From NCBI GenBank assembly GCA_020845955.1, contig JADLEU010000162.1:1-51792 (forward strand): a DNA stretch of 51,792 nucleotides, read 5' to 3'. Below are positions 38,858-45,432 of this stretch, piece by piece (positions within the stretch are counted from its first letter, which is position 1; the number at the start of each line of letters is the position of its first letter). Both the position numbers and the translations under genes were made by a program. The notes beneath the pieces were generated by a model. The model made no database searches, was not told the origin of the DNA, and saw nothing but the letters and a program-made list of their open reading frames with translations. The stretch comes from Anaerolineales bacterium. GTDB taxonomy: Bacteria > Chloroflexota > Anaerolineae > Anaerolineales > UBA6663.

Positions 38858-40774
38858 TTACTCCTCATCCAGAACGCCGAAAATGTCATCCTTGGCGCGG
38901 CCCGGCTTGCGCTTCTTGCGCGTAATGAACATGCCCAGGTCTTCGTCGTACGTAATCTCAACCGCCCCCTTCTTCTTGCCCTTCTTCTTGCCCTTCTTCT
39001 TGCCGTCGTCGCTGTCTTCGTCGGCGTCTTTGTCTTCAGCGTCTTCGTCGAGTTCTTCCTCGATCGCGATGCTTGCCGGCTCAACTTCCACTGCCGCCTC
39101 GGGTGCGGCTTCGACGACCGCGGCCTCGGCTTCCGCCGCCGCGGGTTCGGCCGCCACTTCGGCTGCGGCCGCGCTGGGCTCGCCGGCGGCTTCCACTACG
39201 GCCGGCGCAGGCGCTTCAGCCGCAGCCGGCTCGGCTTCGGCCACAGCCGACTCAGCTGGCGGGGCTTCGACCTCAGCTTCCGGCAGCTGCACCGCGGCCA
39301 AGGCAGCCTTGAGATCCTCCATCATCTTGGGCCCGAAACCCTCCAGGCCCAGAATGCGATCTTCGTCGAGCGCCAGCTGCTCCATGACTTGCCCCACCGT
39401 CTGGAAGTCGGCCTCCGCCAAGACGCGCTGCGCGCGCTCCGAGAGGCTTGCTTCGGTCAAGGGCACCTGGTAGGCGACAGCCGGGATGGTGGCCTTGATC
39501 TCGGCGACCTTCTCCTCCTTGGCCGCGCGCTCTTCCTGGCGGCCCTTGGCCACCCGCTTCTCGACCAACTCGACCAGCTTGGCCAGCTGCTGATATTCCT
39601 CGGGCGTGATGGGCTTGCCCTCGGCCTTCTTGGCCAGGGCAGCGCCGGCCGACGCCACTAATTCAGGGCTGGAAGCCGCCGTCTCGGCGAAGGCGGGCTC
39701 TTCCAGCAACTTGCGGTTGGCGTCGGTGGCCGATTCGGTCAAGCTCTTGATGTCTATGCGCCAGCCGGTCAGCTTGGCAGCCAGCCGCGCGTTCTGGCCC
39801 TCGCGGCCAATCGCCAGGCTGAGCTGGTCGTCGGGCACCACCACCATGGCCGTACGGCCGGAGAGCGGGTCATCGTTGAGGTAGACCGCCGTCACGCGGG
39901 CCGGGCTCAGCGCCTTGGCGATGAACATGGCCTGGTCGGGGTTCCACTCGATGACGTCGATCTTTTCGTCGCTCAGCTCGCGGACGATCGATTGAATGCG
40001 CACGCCGCGCATGCCGACGCAGGCGCCGACCGGGTCCACCCCTTCCTGCACGGCCGCCACCGCCACCTTGGAGCGCTGACCCGGCTCGCGCGCGATGGAC
40101 TTGATCTCGACGGCGCCGTTGTAGATTTCTGGCACCTCGTATTCCAGCAGCCGGCGCAGCATGCCCTTGTGCGAACGCGAGACGATGATCTGCGGCCCGC
40201 GCGTAGTCTTACGCACTTCCAGCACGTAGGCCCGCACCTTTTCGTGCGCGTGGTAGCGCTCGCCAGGCACCATCTGATTGCGCGGAAGCGTAGCCTCCGT
40301 GCGGCCCAGCCCCAGCGTCACCCCCTGCGCCGTGACCGATTGCACCGTGCCGTTGACGATGTCGCCTTCCCGCTGGATGTACTCCTGGTACTGGCTCTCG
40401 CGCTCGGCCTCGCGGATGCGCTGCAGGATAACCTGCTTGGCGGCCTGGGCCGCAATCCGGCCGAAGTTGCGCGGCGTGGCCTCCACCGTCACCATGTCGC
40501 CCAACTGTGCTCCTGGGTCGACCAGCCGCGCCTCCTCCAGCGCCACCTCGGTGTTGGCCTCCAGCACATCTTCGACGACTTCCTTCTCGGCGTAGACCTT
40601 GATCCCGCCGGTCGCCGGGTCGACCTTAACGACAACGTGCTGCGCCGCAGAGGCGTTGACTGCCTTCCGATAGGCCGTCACCATCGCGTTCTCGAGCGCA
40701 TCAAGAATGACTTCTCGCTTGAGCTTGCTGTGCTCGGCAATTTCATTGAACGCTAAGGCAAATTCGCTTTTCAT
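38858..40774 (-). CDS. nusA: Transcription elongation factor NusA with a long charged C-terminal extension
   Basis: This 638-residue protein has the RNAP-binding N-domain (about 1-125), an S1 domain with [20 protein letters not shown] (about 135-200), and two KH domains ([38 protein letters not shown]). A helix-hairpin-helix-like segment [19 protein letters not shown] follows. From about residue 500 comes a low-complexity Ala/Glu/Pro tail, an Asp/Glu-rich patch, three copies of Lys-Lys-Lys-Gly (about 591-602), and a short ordered-looking end with [17 protein letters not shown]. The extension is far beyond the usual 350-500 residues. A promoter and hairpin-bearing leader lie upstream. The usual upstream partner rimP is missing. 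Confidence 0.96.
38967..39002 (-). repeat. Three perfect 12-bp tandem repeats inside nusA
   Basis: CCCTTCTTCTTG occurs three times in a row on the plus strand at 38967-38978, 38979-38990 and 38991-39002, encoding Lys-Lys-Lys-Gly units. Copy number could change by slippage without changing the frame. Confidence 0.9.
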
Positions 40775-40951: not shown

Positions 40952-41098
40952 GTCCGGCCCCGCATGCCCGCATGGCCGTGGACCGGGCCAGGCCTGGCCC
41001 CTGTCGCCCGACCCACCGGCAGCGGCGCGTGTCCCAAATGCACCCGCTGTGCTATCATGGCCGGACGCGCGCCCCCGACTGCTGATCAGGAGACTGCC

Positions 41099-41440
41099 AT
41101 GACGATCCCGCCGGTTGTCTTTGGCCTGGGTGGCTTGATCCTGGGTCTGCTGCTGACCTTCGGCTTTCCCATTCAGCGCGGCCGTTACCGCAACCAGATT
41201 TGGGATTTACTGACCCTGGCGCTGTTTGTTGTAGCTGGGTGGGGTCTGGCGATCTGGGATCCGCTGAGCAATCTGGCCGCAGGATTGATCGTCGGGTTGG
41301 CCGCCGTCGTGATCCGCGACTTCCGGCTCTGGCTGGCGCGCTTCCACAGCCAGTCCTACCGGCGCAGCCACCGCTATTATTGGTATGGTCGGGCGCGCAA
41401 TTGGTACGGCGGGCGGCGCCGCCGGCGCTCCTATCGCTAG
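41099..41440 (+). CDS. Small membrane protein with an Arg/Tyr-rich tail
   Basis: A 113-residue protein with three hydrophobic segments (about 4-26, 36-55 and 59-78) and a strongly basic C-terminus rich in Arg and Tyr (HRYYWYGRARNWYGG, then RRRRRSYR). No family is recognised. The ATG at 41099 has AGGAG six bases upstream; TATCAT at 41053-41058 may be its -10. The tail should stay in the cytoplasm by the positive-inside rule and could touch nucleic acid or acidic lipids. It is divergent from nusA, in the place where rimP might be expected. Confidence 0.7.
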   Translation: MTIPPVVFGLGGLILGLLLTFGFPIQRGRYRNQIWDLLTLALFVVAGWGLAIWDPLSNLAAGLIVGLAAVVIRDFRLWLARFHSQSYRRSHRYYWYGRARNWYGGRRRRRSYR

Positions 41441-41451
41441 GCAGCCCCACA

Positions 41452-41487
41452 AAAAGCGTGAGAGCCGCCGATTCGCTGGCGGCTCTC
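41452..41487 (-). terminator. Intrinsic terminator of the 6S-like RNA
   Basis: On the minus strand GAGAGCCGCC (41487-41478) pairs perfectly with GGCGGCTCTC (41469-41460) over an 8-nt loop, followed by ACGCTTTTTG. The T-run identifies the minus strand as the direction of termination. The plus-strand gene ending at 41440 may use the hairpin from the other side. Confidence 0.82.
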
Positions 41488-41669
41488 GGGATCAGCGCGC
41501 CCCGCCATGCCGTGTGCTGCCAAGTTTTGAACCTGCTTTCGCAGGGTGGGGACCGCCCGGCCGGGTCTGCCTTGGCCGAAGCCTAACGCATTCCTGGTCT
41601 GAGATTAGTCCCCAAAGTAACGGTGTTGGCTCAAAACGGCACGACAGCATCACGCTCACAGCAGGGACG
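41452..41669 (-). ncRNA. Structured RNA with 6S-like architecture, own promoter and terminator
   Basis: Reading the minus strand from about 41669: a closing stem GTG/GCTG with CAGC/CAC and GTTTTGA (41637-41631) with TCAAAAC (41530-41524). Next is a bubble whose 5' side is 16 unpaired nt and whose 3' side is a 14-nt hairpin CCTGC-GAAA-GCAGG (41545-41532). An apical stem TGGGGAC/GTCCCCA (41614-41608, 41553-41547) follows, with an inner hairpin GGC-TTCG-GCC at 41583-41574. GNRA and C(UUCG)G loops appear only in the minus-strand reading. Closing stem, central bubble with a 3'-side hairpin, and apical arm are the plan of 6S RNA, the RNA-polymerase decoy. A different RNA class cannot be excluded; primary sequence was not matched to a known 6S. 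Confidence 0.65.
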
Positions 41670-41675
41670 ACCTTA

Positions 41676-41704
41676 CATATACCATGACTTGAACGAAACC
41701 GCAA
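41676..41704 (-). promoter_or_regulatory. Promoter for the 6S-like RNA
   Basis: Minus strand TTGCGG, a 17-nt spacer and TATATG, placing the RNA start near 41669. It lies between the aspS stop codon and the RNA. Confidence 0.55.
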
Positions 41705-41739
41705 CGCGGGGCGGCCGGCACTGTTCACCATGGACGCGG

Positions 41740-43518
41740 TCAGGCTGGTTCCGTCTCGGTTACCGCGATGTGCAGCTCGGCGAGCTGCTGCGGGTCAACC
41801 GGCGAGGGCGCCCCAGCCATCACGTCCATCGCTGCCTGGTTCTTCGGGAAGGCAATCACTTCGCGGATGTTCGGCTCGCCGGCTAGAATCATCGTCAGAC
41901 GGTCAATGCCTGGCGCAATGCCCCCATGCGGGGGCACGCCGTACTCAAACGCTTCCAACAGGTGCCCGAAACGCTCGCGCGCGACCTCCACATCGAGGCC
42001 GATCAGCCGAAAAACCTTTTCCTGCAGATCGCGGCGGTGGATCCGGATCGAGCCTCCGCCGACCTCGAAGTTGTTCAGCACCAGGTCGTACTGCTGGCCG
42101 CGCGCTCGCCCCGGATCGGTATCGAGCCAGTGCTCGTCCGCCTCCATCGGCGCGGTGAATAGGTGATGGCTGGGATCCCAGCGCTGCTCGGCCTCGCTCC
42201 AGTTGAGATACGGGAAATCGACCACCCAGCAGAAAGCCAGCAGGCTGTCGTCGCGCAGCTGCAGCCGGTCGGCCACTTCCACGCGCAGCCGCGCCAGCGC
42301 TTCGTACACCACGGCTGGTTGGTCGGCGACGAACAGCAGCAGGTCACCCGGCTCGGCCTCCAGCCGACGAACGAGCTCGGCTAGCAGGTCGGGCGACAGG
42401 AACTTCGCAAACGTCGACCGGTGTCCGCCGGGGGCCTCCACCGCAAGATAGGCCAGTCCTTTGGCGCCGAAGCTCTTCACGAACTCAGTCAGCTCGTCGA
42501 TCTGCTTGCGCGTGTACCCGCCCAGTCCCTTGGCGTTAATCCCGCGCACGTGCCCGCCGCGCGCGACCGCGTCGGCGAAGACTTTGAAGCCGCTTTGCGG
42601 CGCCAGGTCCGTGATGTCCTTGAGCTCCAGCCCAAAGCGGATATCGGGGCTGTCTTTGCCGAAGCGGTCCATCACTGCCTGGTAGCTGAAGCGCGGCCAG
42701 GGCTTGGCGAAGAGCCGCTTCTCAGGCACGAGCTGCTCGACCATAGCCGTAAATACGTTCTCGATCAAATCCATCACATCTTCGCGCGTGACGAACGACA
42801 TCTCCAGGTCTAGCTGGGTAAACTCCGGCTGGCGGTCGACCCGCTGATCCTCGTCGCGGAAGCAGCGCGCAATCTGGAAGTAGCGCTCCACGCCAGCTAC
42901 CATCAGCAGCTGTTTCAATTGCTGCGGCGACTGCGGCAGCGCGTAGAAGCTGCCCGGATGCACCCGCGAGGGTACCAGATAGTCGCGGGCGCCCTCGGGC
43001 GTGGTTTTGAACAGAATCGGCGTCTCCACCTCAATGAAGCGCTGAGCGTGCAGGCTGTCGCGGATGAACTTGACCACGTCGGCCCGCAGCTGCAGGTTGC
43101 GCCGCATGCGCTCGCGGCGCAGATCGAGGTAGCGGTACTTCAGGCGCAGGTTCTCGTCCACCGTCTGCTCCTCGTTGATCAGGAAGGGCGGCGCCTTGGC
43201 GGCGTTGAGGAGGTCGAGCTGCTGCACCTCCAGTTCGACGTGGCCGGTCGCCAGCTTGGGGTTCTCCTTGCCGGGCAGACGGGCGCGCACCACTCCCGTG
43301 ACGCGCAGTACGTACTCGTTGCGCACCCGAGCGGCGCTGGCATGCGCCTCGGGCGACAGCTCGGGGTTGGCCACGACCTGCGTCAGCCCCCAGCGATCGC
43401 GCAGATCGAGGAAGATCAGGCCGCCGTGGTCACGGCGCGCATTGACCCAGCCGGCCAGTGTGACTGTCTGGCCGATATGGTCGGAACGAAGCTCGCCGCA
43501 GGTATGCGTTTTGTACAT
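41740..43518 (-). CDS. aspS: Aspartyl-tRNA synthetase
   Basis: A 592-residue bacterial-type class II synthetase. The OB-fold anticodon-binding domain reads TVTLAGWVNARRDHGGLIFL. Class II motif 2 follows in FQIARCFRDEDQRVDRQPEF, with TQLDLEMSF after it. A GAD insertion domain sits in the middle, and motif 3 is GIAPGIDRLTMILAGEPNIR. The full-length GAD-containing form is bacterial; whether it also charges Asn-tRNA (non-discriminating) cannot be told here. The ATG at 43518 has a perfect AGGAGGT five bases upstream, so the open frame to 43614, which crosses the leader terminator, is not used. Confidence 0.97.
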   Translation of the reverse strand: MYKTHTCGELRSDHIGQTVTLAGWVNARRDHGGLIFLDLRDRWGLTQVVANPELSPEAHASAARVRNEYVLRVTGVVRARLPGKENPKLATGHVELEVQQLDLLNAAKAPPFLINEEQTVDENLRLKYRYLDLRRERMRRNLQLRADVVKFIRDSLHAQRFIEVETPILFKTTPEGARDYLVPSRVHPGSFYALPQSPQQLKQLLMVAGVERYFQIARCFRDEDQRVDRQPEFTQLDLEMSFVTREDVMDLIENVFTAMVEQLVPEKRLFAKPWPRFSYQAVMDRFGKDSPDIRFGLELKDITDLAPQSGFKVFADAVARGGHVRGINAKGLGGYTRKQIDELTEFVKSFGAKGLAYLAVEAPGGHRSTFAKFLSPDLLAELVRRLEAEPGDLLLFVADQPAVVYEALARLRVEVADRLQLRDDSLLAFCWVVDFPYLNWSEAEQRWDPSHHLFTAPMEADEHWLDTDPGRARGQQYDLVLNNFEVGGGSIRIHRRDLQEKVFRLIGLDVEVARERFGHLLEAFEYGVPPHGGIAPGIDRLTMILAGEPNIREVIAFPKNQAAMDVMAGAPSPVDPQQLAELHIAVTETEPA

Positions 43519-43564
43519 GATAGACCTCCTCGCAGCAAGTCGGTGGACCGGCGTGCATGGCGGC

Positions 43565-43598
43565 AAAATGAAACCGCCCGGCACATCGGCCCGGGCGG
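43565..43598 (-). terminator. Attenuator-type terminator in the aspS leader
   Basis: Minus strand CCGCCCGG (43598-43591) pairs with CCGGGCGG (43581-43574) over a 9-nt loop, followed by TTTCATTTT. It lies between the aspS promoter and the aspS ribosome-binding site, so it must be bypassed for expression. Confidence 0.72.
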
Positions 43599-43624
43599 CT
43601 ATCGGCATCGGCAATCTGCGCGGA

Positions 43625-43726: not shown

Positions 43727-43756
43727 AGTATAGCACGGCTGCGGCCCCAGGGTCAA
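43727..43756 (-). promoter_or_regulatory. Promoter of the aspS leader transcript
   Basis: Minus strand TTGACC, an 18-nt spacer and TATACT. The -35 overlaps the end of the upstream membrane-protein gene. The leader up to the aspS ATG is about 200 nt. Confidence 0.75.
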
Positions 43757-45432
43757 TACTCGGCCAGCGCATAGATGCGGTACCCCGAGTTTTCGTACAC
43801 CAGCGGCAGGGCATAGTCGTGAGGCTGCTCGACGACCAGGTAGTCGGCGCCAAAGGTTTCACCCAGCCGGGCAAAGTCGCCCGCCGACAGACTATAAAAC
43901 GCGGCTGCGGTGAGCCGTTTGTTCTCGAAAAAGTCGCCTCGGAACTGCCCGAGCGCGCCCGGCGCCAGCGCCTCGAACCGCGGCTGCCAATAGGGCAGAT
44001 AGTCTGGCGCAAAGGCCGCCTCCAGCAGCTCGGACAGCGTAGCCACGGTCGAGCGCTCGGAAAAGACACGCCAGTCCGACTGATACAGCCACCAGATGTG
44101 CGGCGGCGTAATGAAGCGGGCCTCCAGCGGCGTGTGATCGCGCGCCCAGACTTGGGCGTCTTCCCAGGCCGTGTCCGGTCCGTACAGGTGCAATCCAGGT
44201 GACCACACCTGGTAGGCAGCAGCGATGACGATGGTGCCCGCGACGGACAGCAGCAGCGTGATCCAGGCCGCTGCCTGGCGCCAGGCCGGGCTGCGCACCA
44301 GCCGCTGCAGCGCCCAGACCAACAGGGGCACAACGGGCAGCGCCGAGAACACCAGCGCGCCGGCCAGGACGGCCAGATCAGCCCGTGACTGCGCCCGGCG
44401 GCGGTATTGCTCTGTGACGTACCAGGCGAAGTACAACAGCCCGAAAATCAGGACAAACAGCCCGGCACGGATGATCTGCGACTGGATGACGATGGTGATC
44501 GGCAGCCATTGGGCCGTCACCACCTGGACGGCCAGGATGATCAGCCCCGCGACGACAAAGATCGTTACGGTCTGGTCGCGCGGCGTCGCCCGCCTAGCCC
44601 GGCGCGCCACAGCAAAGAGCGCCAGAGCCGCCAGCCCGCTGACGGAGATCAACAGGATGTGCGGATAGGGGGGAAACAGGTAGAACAGGTTATATAGTGT
44701 GCCACGCGCGATGATGGCGAACCACTCGGGCCGCACGCTGAAGTCTACCGGCGAGCCAGCGAGCTTCCAGATCAGCACCGGCGCGGCGGCGATCACGAAC
44801 AGCAGCAAGCTCAGCGCCAGGCTGCGCCACCCGATCTGGCGCAACTGGACTACGGCCGCCAACAGGAACATGGCCAGCACGAACTGGGCCGAAATGACGT
44901 GCAGGTTGTACATCACGCCCAGCAGGGCAAACGCCCCCACCCAACGCCGCCGGAGAAACAGGTCGATGGCCACAAGCAGCCAGGGCAGCACGAAGGTGCG
45001 GTTGAGCAGGCTGAACTCGATCACGGGAAAGCCCGCAAAGCCAATGTGGGGCCAGACGAACACCACCACGGTCAGGAGCGCTGCCAGCGGGCTCTCGAAC
45101 AGGGTCAGGCTCAGCGCCCAGAGCGCCCAGAAGGTGCCGTAGGTGGCGGCCAGATGGACGCCGAAGAGCGCGATCTCGAGCACGCCCGCCCGGTAGAACG
45201 GTTGAAAGAAGAACCAGAAGTAGGAGTAGTGCTGCGTGCGCAGCTCTAGAAATGGGTCGTTGGGGAAGAGCTCTGGCTGAGCGTATTTCTTCAGGAAAGG
45301 GATGTGGATTGTCTGATCGAAGGTGCCAAAGTGATAGCCGACAAGGACGACGGTTGCGAGGGTGGCCACGAGAAAGAGCGCGTGCCGCTGCCAGGGGGTG
45401 CTCGCGATGCGGTTGGCAAACGCTTCTAGCAT
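43753..45432 (-). CDS. Polytopic membrane protein of unknown function, 559 residues
   Basis: It has about eleven hydrophobic segments, an early extracytoplasmic loop with FGTFDQTIHIPFLKKYAQPE and FPNDPFLELRTQHYSYFW, and a C-terminal soluble domain ending GADYLVVEQPHDYALPLVYE and NSGYRIYALAEY. The layout resembles GT-C fold proteins and is reminiscent of the short membrane proteins at 2850-4406 and 6396-7973, whose C-termini also end in a -YVFFGP-/-YSIYA-type strand pair. I do not recognise a named family with certainty (a DUF6798-like protein is possible). GAGGAG lies 5 nt before the ATG, and a promoter is found at 45484-45511. Confidence 0.7.
   Translation of the reverse strand: MLEAFANRIASTPWQRHALFLVATLATVVLVGYHFGTFDQTIHIPFLKKYAQPELFPNDPFLELRTQHYSYFWFFFQPFYRAGVLEIALFGVHLAATYGTFWALWALSLTLFESPLAALLTVVVFVWPHIGFAGFPVIEFSLLNRTFVLPWLLVAIDLFLRRRWVGAFALLGVMYNLHVISAQFVLAMFLLAAVVQLRQIGWRSLALSLLLFVIAAAPVLIWKLAGSPVDFSVRPEWFAIIARGTLYNLFYLFPPYPHILLISVSGLAALALFAVARRARRATPRDQTVTIFVVAGLIILAVQVVTAQWLPITIVIQSQIIRAGLFVLIFGLLYFAWYVTEQYRRRAQSRADLAVLAGALVFSALPVVPLLVWALQRLVRSPAWRQAAAWITLLLSVAGTIVIAAAYQVWSPGLHLYGPDTAWEDAQVWARDHTPLEARFITPPHIWWLYQSDWRVFSERSTVATLSELLEAAFAPDYLPYWQPRFEALAPGALGQFRGDFFENKRLTAAAFYSLSAGDFARLGETFGADYLVVEQPHDYALPLVYENSGYRIYALAEY

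Follow-up and report, generated by a model that had tools for sequence, protein, structure and literature searches.

A very probable 6S RNA gene beside aspS in a bacterium of the Anaerolineales

6S RNA is a well-known small RNA, from a widespread family, that mimics an open promoter and holds the main RNA polymerase in reserve. Members of the family bind the housekeeping sigma-RNA polymerase holoenzyme, build up in stationary phase and are copied into short product RNAs (pRNAs) on outgrowth. In Bacillus subtilis the gene for 6S-1 RNA is named bsrA; in E. coli the genomic neighbours of 6S RNA presumably differ from those of the locus described here. The partner of Ms1 RNA is core polymerase lacking sigma, and its gene has a HAD-hydrolase neighbour in Actinobacteria. 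According to the parts of PMC8876501 drawn on here, E. coli 6S RNA has a bubble, a pRNA template and a 3'-side release hairpin, and its -35-like region sits in the apical arm. The B. subtilis 6S-1 gene lies in the aspS-yrvM intergenic region (so a reference title in PMC12005410), and its pRNA is 5'-GUUCGGUCAAAACUA (same paper, in excerpt). The presence of 6S RNA in Chloroflexi has already been stated, with Wehner 2014 cited, in the consulted part of PMC7726162. In the open papers searched we found no dedicated 6S RNA study of the Anaerolineales or Chloroflexi lineage.

The window, that is the whole stretch of DNA analysed (51,792 nucleotides of an Anaerolineales genome), holds a region at 41452-41704 in which a sequence-only reading had seen a minus-strand structured RNA with the plan of 6S RNA. 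A covariance search bore this out. The Rfam 6S model (RF00013) matches positions 41496-41670 of the minus strand (175 nt, 5' end near 41670 and 3' end near 41496) from end to end, covering model positions 1-187 of 187, with 50.0 bits and an E-value of 4.2e-7; the score exceeds the curated gathering cut-off of 46.4 bits by 3.6 bits. At gathering thresholds this is the sole Rfam match across the window. A better match to some other RNA family was also sought: when all families were listed for 306 bases up to an E-value of 10, only PyrR204 (RF02802) appeared besides RF00013, far below its cut-off (21.4 bits against 71). It overlaps the terminator hairpin, with 12.7 bits on the other strand, and was rejected as a chance hit. 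We are nearly certain that 41496-41670 is the canonical 6S RNA gene of this bacterium. Within its well-known family the RNA is unremarkable; the host genome is little studied.

The minus strand of the region folds at -82.5 kcal/mol (z -3.78), a value matched by none of 200 shuffled sequences, and the plus strand gives a z of only -1.18, with 25 of 200 shuffles as good. Fold and alignment confirm a rod-like layout of closing stem, central bubble and apical stem, and every part that the sequence-only reading had named is present. The closing stem runs from 41642-41669 (5' strand) to 41496-41522 (3' strand, bearing the conserved CACACGGCA). It is followed by a P2-like inner helix between GUUUUGAGCC at 41628-41637 and GGUUCAAAAC at 41524-41533. 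The 5' side of the central bubble occupies 41615-41627, and its 3' side forms the hairpin CCUGC-GAAA-GCAGG (41532-41545). The apical arm (41547-41614) contains a conserved internal loop and is capped by the hairpin GGC-UUCG-GCC (41574-41583); it is backed by both fold and covariation. The span 41452-41704 itself fits well, since its ends correspond to the T-run of a terminator and to a -35 hexamer, with the RNA core inside.

One argument of the sequence-only reading held only in part. Both stable tetraloops do lie on the minus strand, but the loop types vary: a GNRA loop closes the 3'-bubble hairpin of the window and of many relatives, and GAAC, GAAG, GAAU, UUAC or UUCG takes its place in others. 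The tetraloop argument is therefore weaker than that from covariation. A GNRA tetraloop-receptor contact was rejected for the same reason, the tetraloop being too variable among relatives.

Compensatory changes were looked for in a MAFFT alignment of 30 loci, which represent 30 of the 32 genomes matching RF00013 in the set made up of the host and its relatives (G027 and G021 were left out); three of the 30 score under the RF00013 gathering cut-off. The structure comprised 50 pairs, from an RNAalifold prediction plus the inner helix taken from the fold of the window RNA. Changes on both sides with pairing kept were found in 26 of the 50 pairs, and 94.0% of cells are paired. In slid controls, with the 3' partners moved by 1-3 columns, these values drop to 7-13 pairs and 31.0-44.8% of cells, and none of 500 shuffles attains the observed values. 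Because the structure, the inner helix excepted, was derived from the same alignment, some of the contrast in paired cells is expected by construction, and the both-side changes carry more weight. The inner helix, which lies outside the RNAalifold prediction, has both-side changes in five of its seven counted pairs, three more being left uncounted where they overlap the 3'-bubble hairpin. In the closing stem (helix 1) 95.0% of cells are paired, with both-side changes in 7 of 22 pairs, and in the 3'-bubble hairpin (helix 7) 96.7% of cells are paired. Two small ORFs overlap the RNA (41385-41687 on the plus strand and 41492-41731 on the minus strand). They were set aside because the 30 aligned RNAs are 172-198 nt long, with lengths that do not go in steps of three, and because the covariation argues for an RNA.

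A minus-strand promoter had also been proposed. Upstream of the RNA are a -35-like hexamer TTGCGG (41699-41704) and, 17 nt further on, an extended -10 element TGGTATATG (41676-41684), which predicts a start near 41669, adjoining the first model position at 41670. A strict sigma-70 consensus scan of 41000-42200 gave no promoter, so that the support for this one comes from conservation. Of the 30 loci, 29 have an extended -10 of the form TG[GT]TA[TAC] no more than 25 nt upstream, compared with 141 of 8596 random windows (1.6%), and 15 of these 29 anchored loci have TTG at the -35 position (17-nt spacing, ±1; control 4.7%). A second -35 type, [TC]TACC, takes the place of TTG at a similar distance from the extended -10 in seven of the 29 (L006, L012, L015, L017, L018, L019 and L022; control 1.2%), and the remaining seven have neither type. 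At the other end, an intrinsic terminator spans 41451-41487 on the minus strand (hairpin 41460-41487, T-run 41451-41455). Similar hairpins with a T-run lie within 90 nt downstream in 19 of the 30 loci, and in 50 of 520 controls. Judged from the sequence, the 6S RNA would thus be a discrete RNA gene with its own promoter. A decayed, unexpressed copy would agree with an RF00013 score so near the cut-off, but we find this scarcely credible: the match is the only one in the whole genome (a draft of 6.06 Mb in 431 contigs) even at E-values up to 10, stems, promoter and terminator are intact, and at the invariant alignment columns the RNA agrees with its relatives.

Is the RNA free, or is it a cis-acting part of aspS? 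It begins about 70 bases downstream of aspS (41740-43614, minus strand; NF001750, 824.8 bits against a cut-off of 443) and runs in the same direction, and aspS precedes the 6S gene on the same strand in 17 of the 30 loci. Such an arrangement could be expected of a 3' UTR structure, an attenuator or a large terminator. Against this, the conserved promoter lies between aspS and the RNA (29 of 30 loci), the whole 6S model is matched, and at other loci the upstream gene is asnS or an unrelated gene, all of which makes a cis-element very improbable and argues for the 6S RNA as a gene in its own right. The aspS count omits L011, L014 and L021, where the hits (24-28%) are to other class II synthetases; a family library, run for L006 and L011, identified asnS upstream in both. 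In L014 and L021 the upstream gene resembles asnS, another class II synthetase, by eye. The nearest relatives of the window's aspS in named genomes are those of Anaerolineales MAGs (79% for isolate SJ819). Since B. subtilis 6S-1 also sits next to aspS, the gene order may be old; convergence or chance could also account for the shared neighbourhood. Other genes nearby include one for a small membrane-like protein with an Arg/Tyr-rich tail (41099-41440, plus strand), convergent with the 6S gene, and one upstream of aspS for a predicted membrane-like protein of 559 amino acids (43753-45432, minus strand), neither with an NCBIfam match. The NusA encoded at 38858-40774 (minus strand) has a long Ala/Glu-rich C-terminal extension with Lys-rich runs at its end.

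By homology, the predicted pRNA template, GUUUUGAGCCAAC, is at 41625-41637 on the minus strand; the start site is likewise deduced, and transcription of the pRNA would begin near GUUGGCUC. The predicted pRNA, 5'-GUUGGCUCAAAAC, and that of B. subtilis 6S-1 have 11 of 13 positions in common. The putative template on the 5' side of the bubble is conserved: 26 of the 30 loci carry GUUUUGAGCC or a close variant of it. The other four loci (L024, L027, L029 and L030), of the same family (f1) as the window, have a template like GACCACGUUU instead of GUUUUGAGCCAACAC, so that they should yield a pRNA unlike the one predicted for the window and for L025. These features bear on whether the RNA might have a different partner, as Ms1 has in core RNA polymerase. 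Ms1 is a structural relative of 6S RNA (PMC9130861, in the part consulted), but RF00013 was matched here with only RF02802 beside it, far below cut-off, at E-values up to 10, and the predicted template and the 3'-bubble sequence both resemble those that serve pRNA synthesis. We accordingly give an Ms1-like partner very little credence and keep to a 6S RNA proper.

The most likely mechanism, in our view, would be trapping of the housekeeping RNA polymerase and release by pRNA synthesis. Judging from the family, the RNA would imitate an open promoter and sequester the housekeeping sigma-RNA polymerase when nutrients are low. On the return of NTPs the polymerase would transcribe a short pRNA, beginning about GUUGGCUCAAAAC, from the 5' side of the bubble; the pRNA hybrid would unzip the inner helix, the freed GCAGG would complete the 3'-bubble hairpin, and the 6S RNA would drop off the polymerase. 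When pairing was blocked over the 13-nt template, the predicted fold, which models neither polymerase nor hybrid, had the inner helix open and the full CCUGC/GCAGG hairpin formed, with the closing and apical stems remaining. This suggests, for the modelled RNA, the hairpin release route described in the available part of PMC8876501. No collapse helix of the central bubble like that of B. subtilis appeared in these template-blocked constrained folds.

What is least ordinary about the locus is an internal loop of the apical arm that hardly varies within the order. It reads GUUAG / CAAG in the window and GAUAG / CAAG in most relatives. The pattern G[ATG]TAG[AG] ... [CT]CAAG, present in all 30 first loci, was written after these had been seen, so that only a second set is a test of it. 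This comprised 26 new loci drawn from 77 RF00013-matching Chloroflexota genomes: the pattern occurs in all 18 further loci of the order, in none of three from other orders of the class and in none of five from other classes of the phylum, the genomes being related and the counts hence not independent. L072, a class member, fails the pattern because its closing pairs are swapped, although GATAG and CAAG are both present. Since E. coli 6S RNA has its -35-like region in the apical arm, the loop is a candidate contact site. That the G[A/U/G]UAG / CAAG loop is a lineage-specific recognition module of Anaerolineales 6S RNAs, which may bind a clade-specific sigma surface or other partner, is a speculative proposal that we think rather unlikely.

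How widespread is the RNA in this lineage? Among the 41 genomes of the host and its relatives RF00013 matches 32, 27 of them above the cut-off, and gives no match in nine. In the wider phylum at least 77 of 300 Chloroflexota genomes have a match and at least 63 one above the cut-off; few candidates were scored per genome and the filters were strict, making these counts lower bounds. A model built from the 30 loci matched 9 of 15 genomes searched at E-values up to 0.1. Of the nine relatives negative for RF00013, this model gave strong matches (E below 1e-8) in four (G013, G014, G024 and G039), a weak one in G038 (E 0.035) and none in the other four. At least some of the absences therefore reflect divergence. 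A genome of the same class (G116) has two RF00013 matches (C4:337188-337363 and C5:648395-648571, with E-values of 2.7e-9 and 5.8e-5) and perhaps two 6S genes. What these comparisons of DNA demonstrate is a conserved putative promoter of its own, a predicted rod with a central bubble, covarying stems, a putative terminator, and conservation in the order and phylum. They extend a firmly known global transcription regulator to a lineage for which the open papers searched yielded no dedicated study, and provide predictions open to test: the pRNA sequence, its start site and the clade-specific loop.

Compared with known systems, the RNA of the window has the E. coli plan of bubble, predicted template and 3'-side hairpin, the latter of 5 bp here and 9 bp in E. 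coli (PMC8876501, as far as consulted). With B. subtilis 6S-1 it shares the position beside aspS, a closely similar sequence of the predicted pRNA, and a small 3'-bubble hairpin, which in that RNA exists already in the free state (same source, in part). In the fold predicted for the free window RNA, in contrast, two G residues of this hairpin belong to the inner helix; no collapse helix is predicted, and the phylum differs. As to Ms1, the upstream neighbour here is aspS and not a HAD hydrolase. With 6S RNA (SsrS, RF00013) as a family, it has in common the layout, a full-length match above the cut-off and covarying stems, and its length is within the family's 153-237 (PMC7726162, in the part consulted). 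Nothing in it goes beyond the family range, and the near-invariant apical loop is the order's own.
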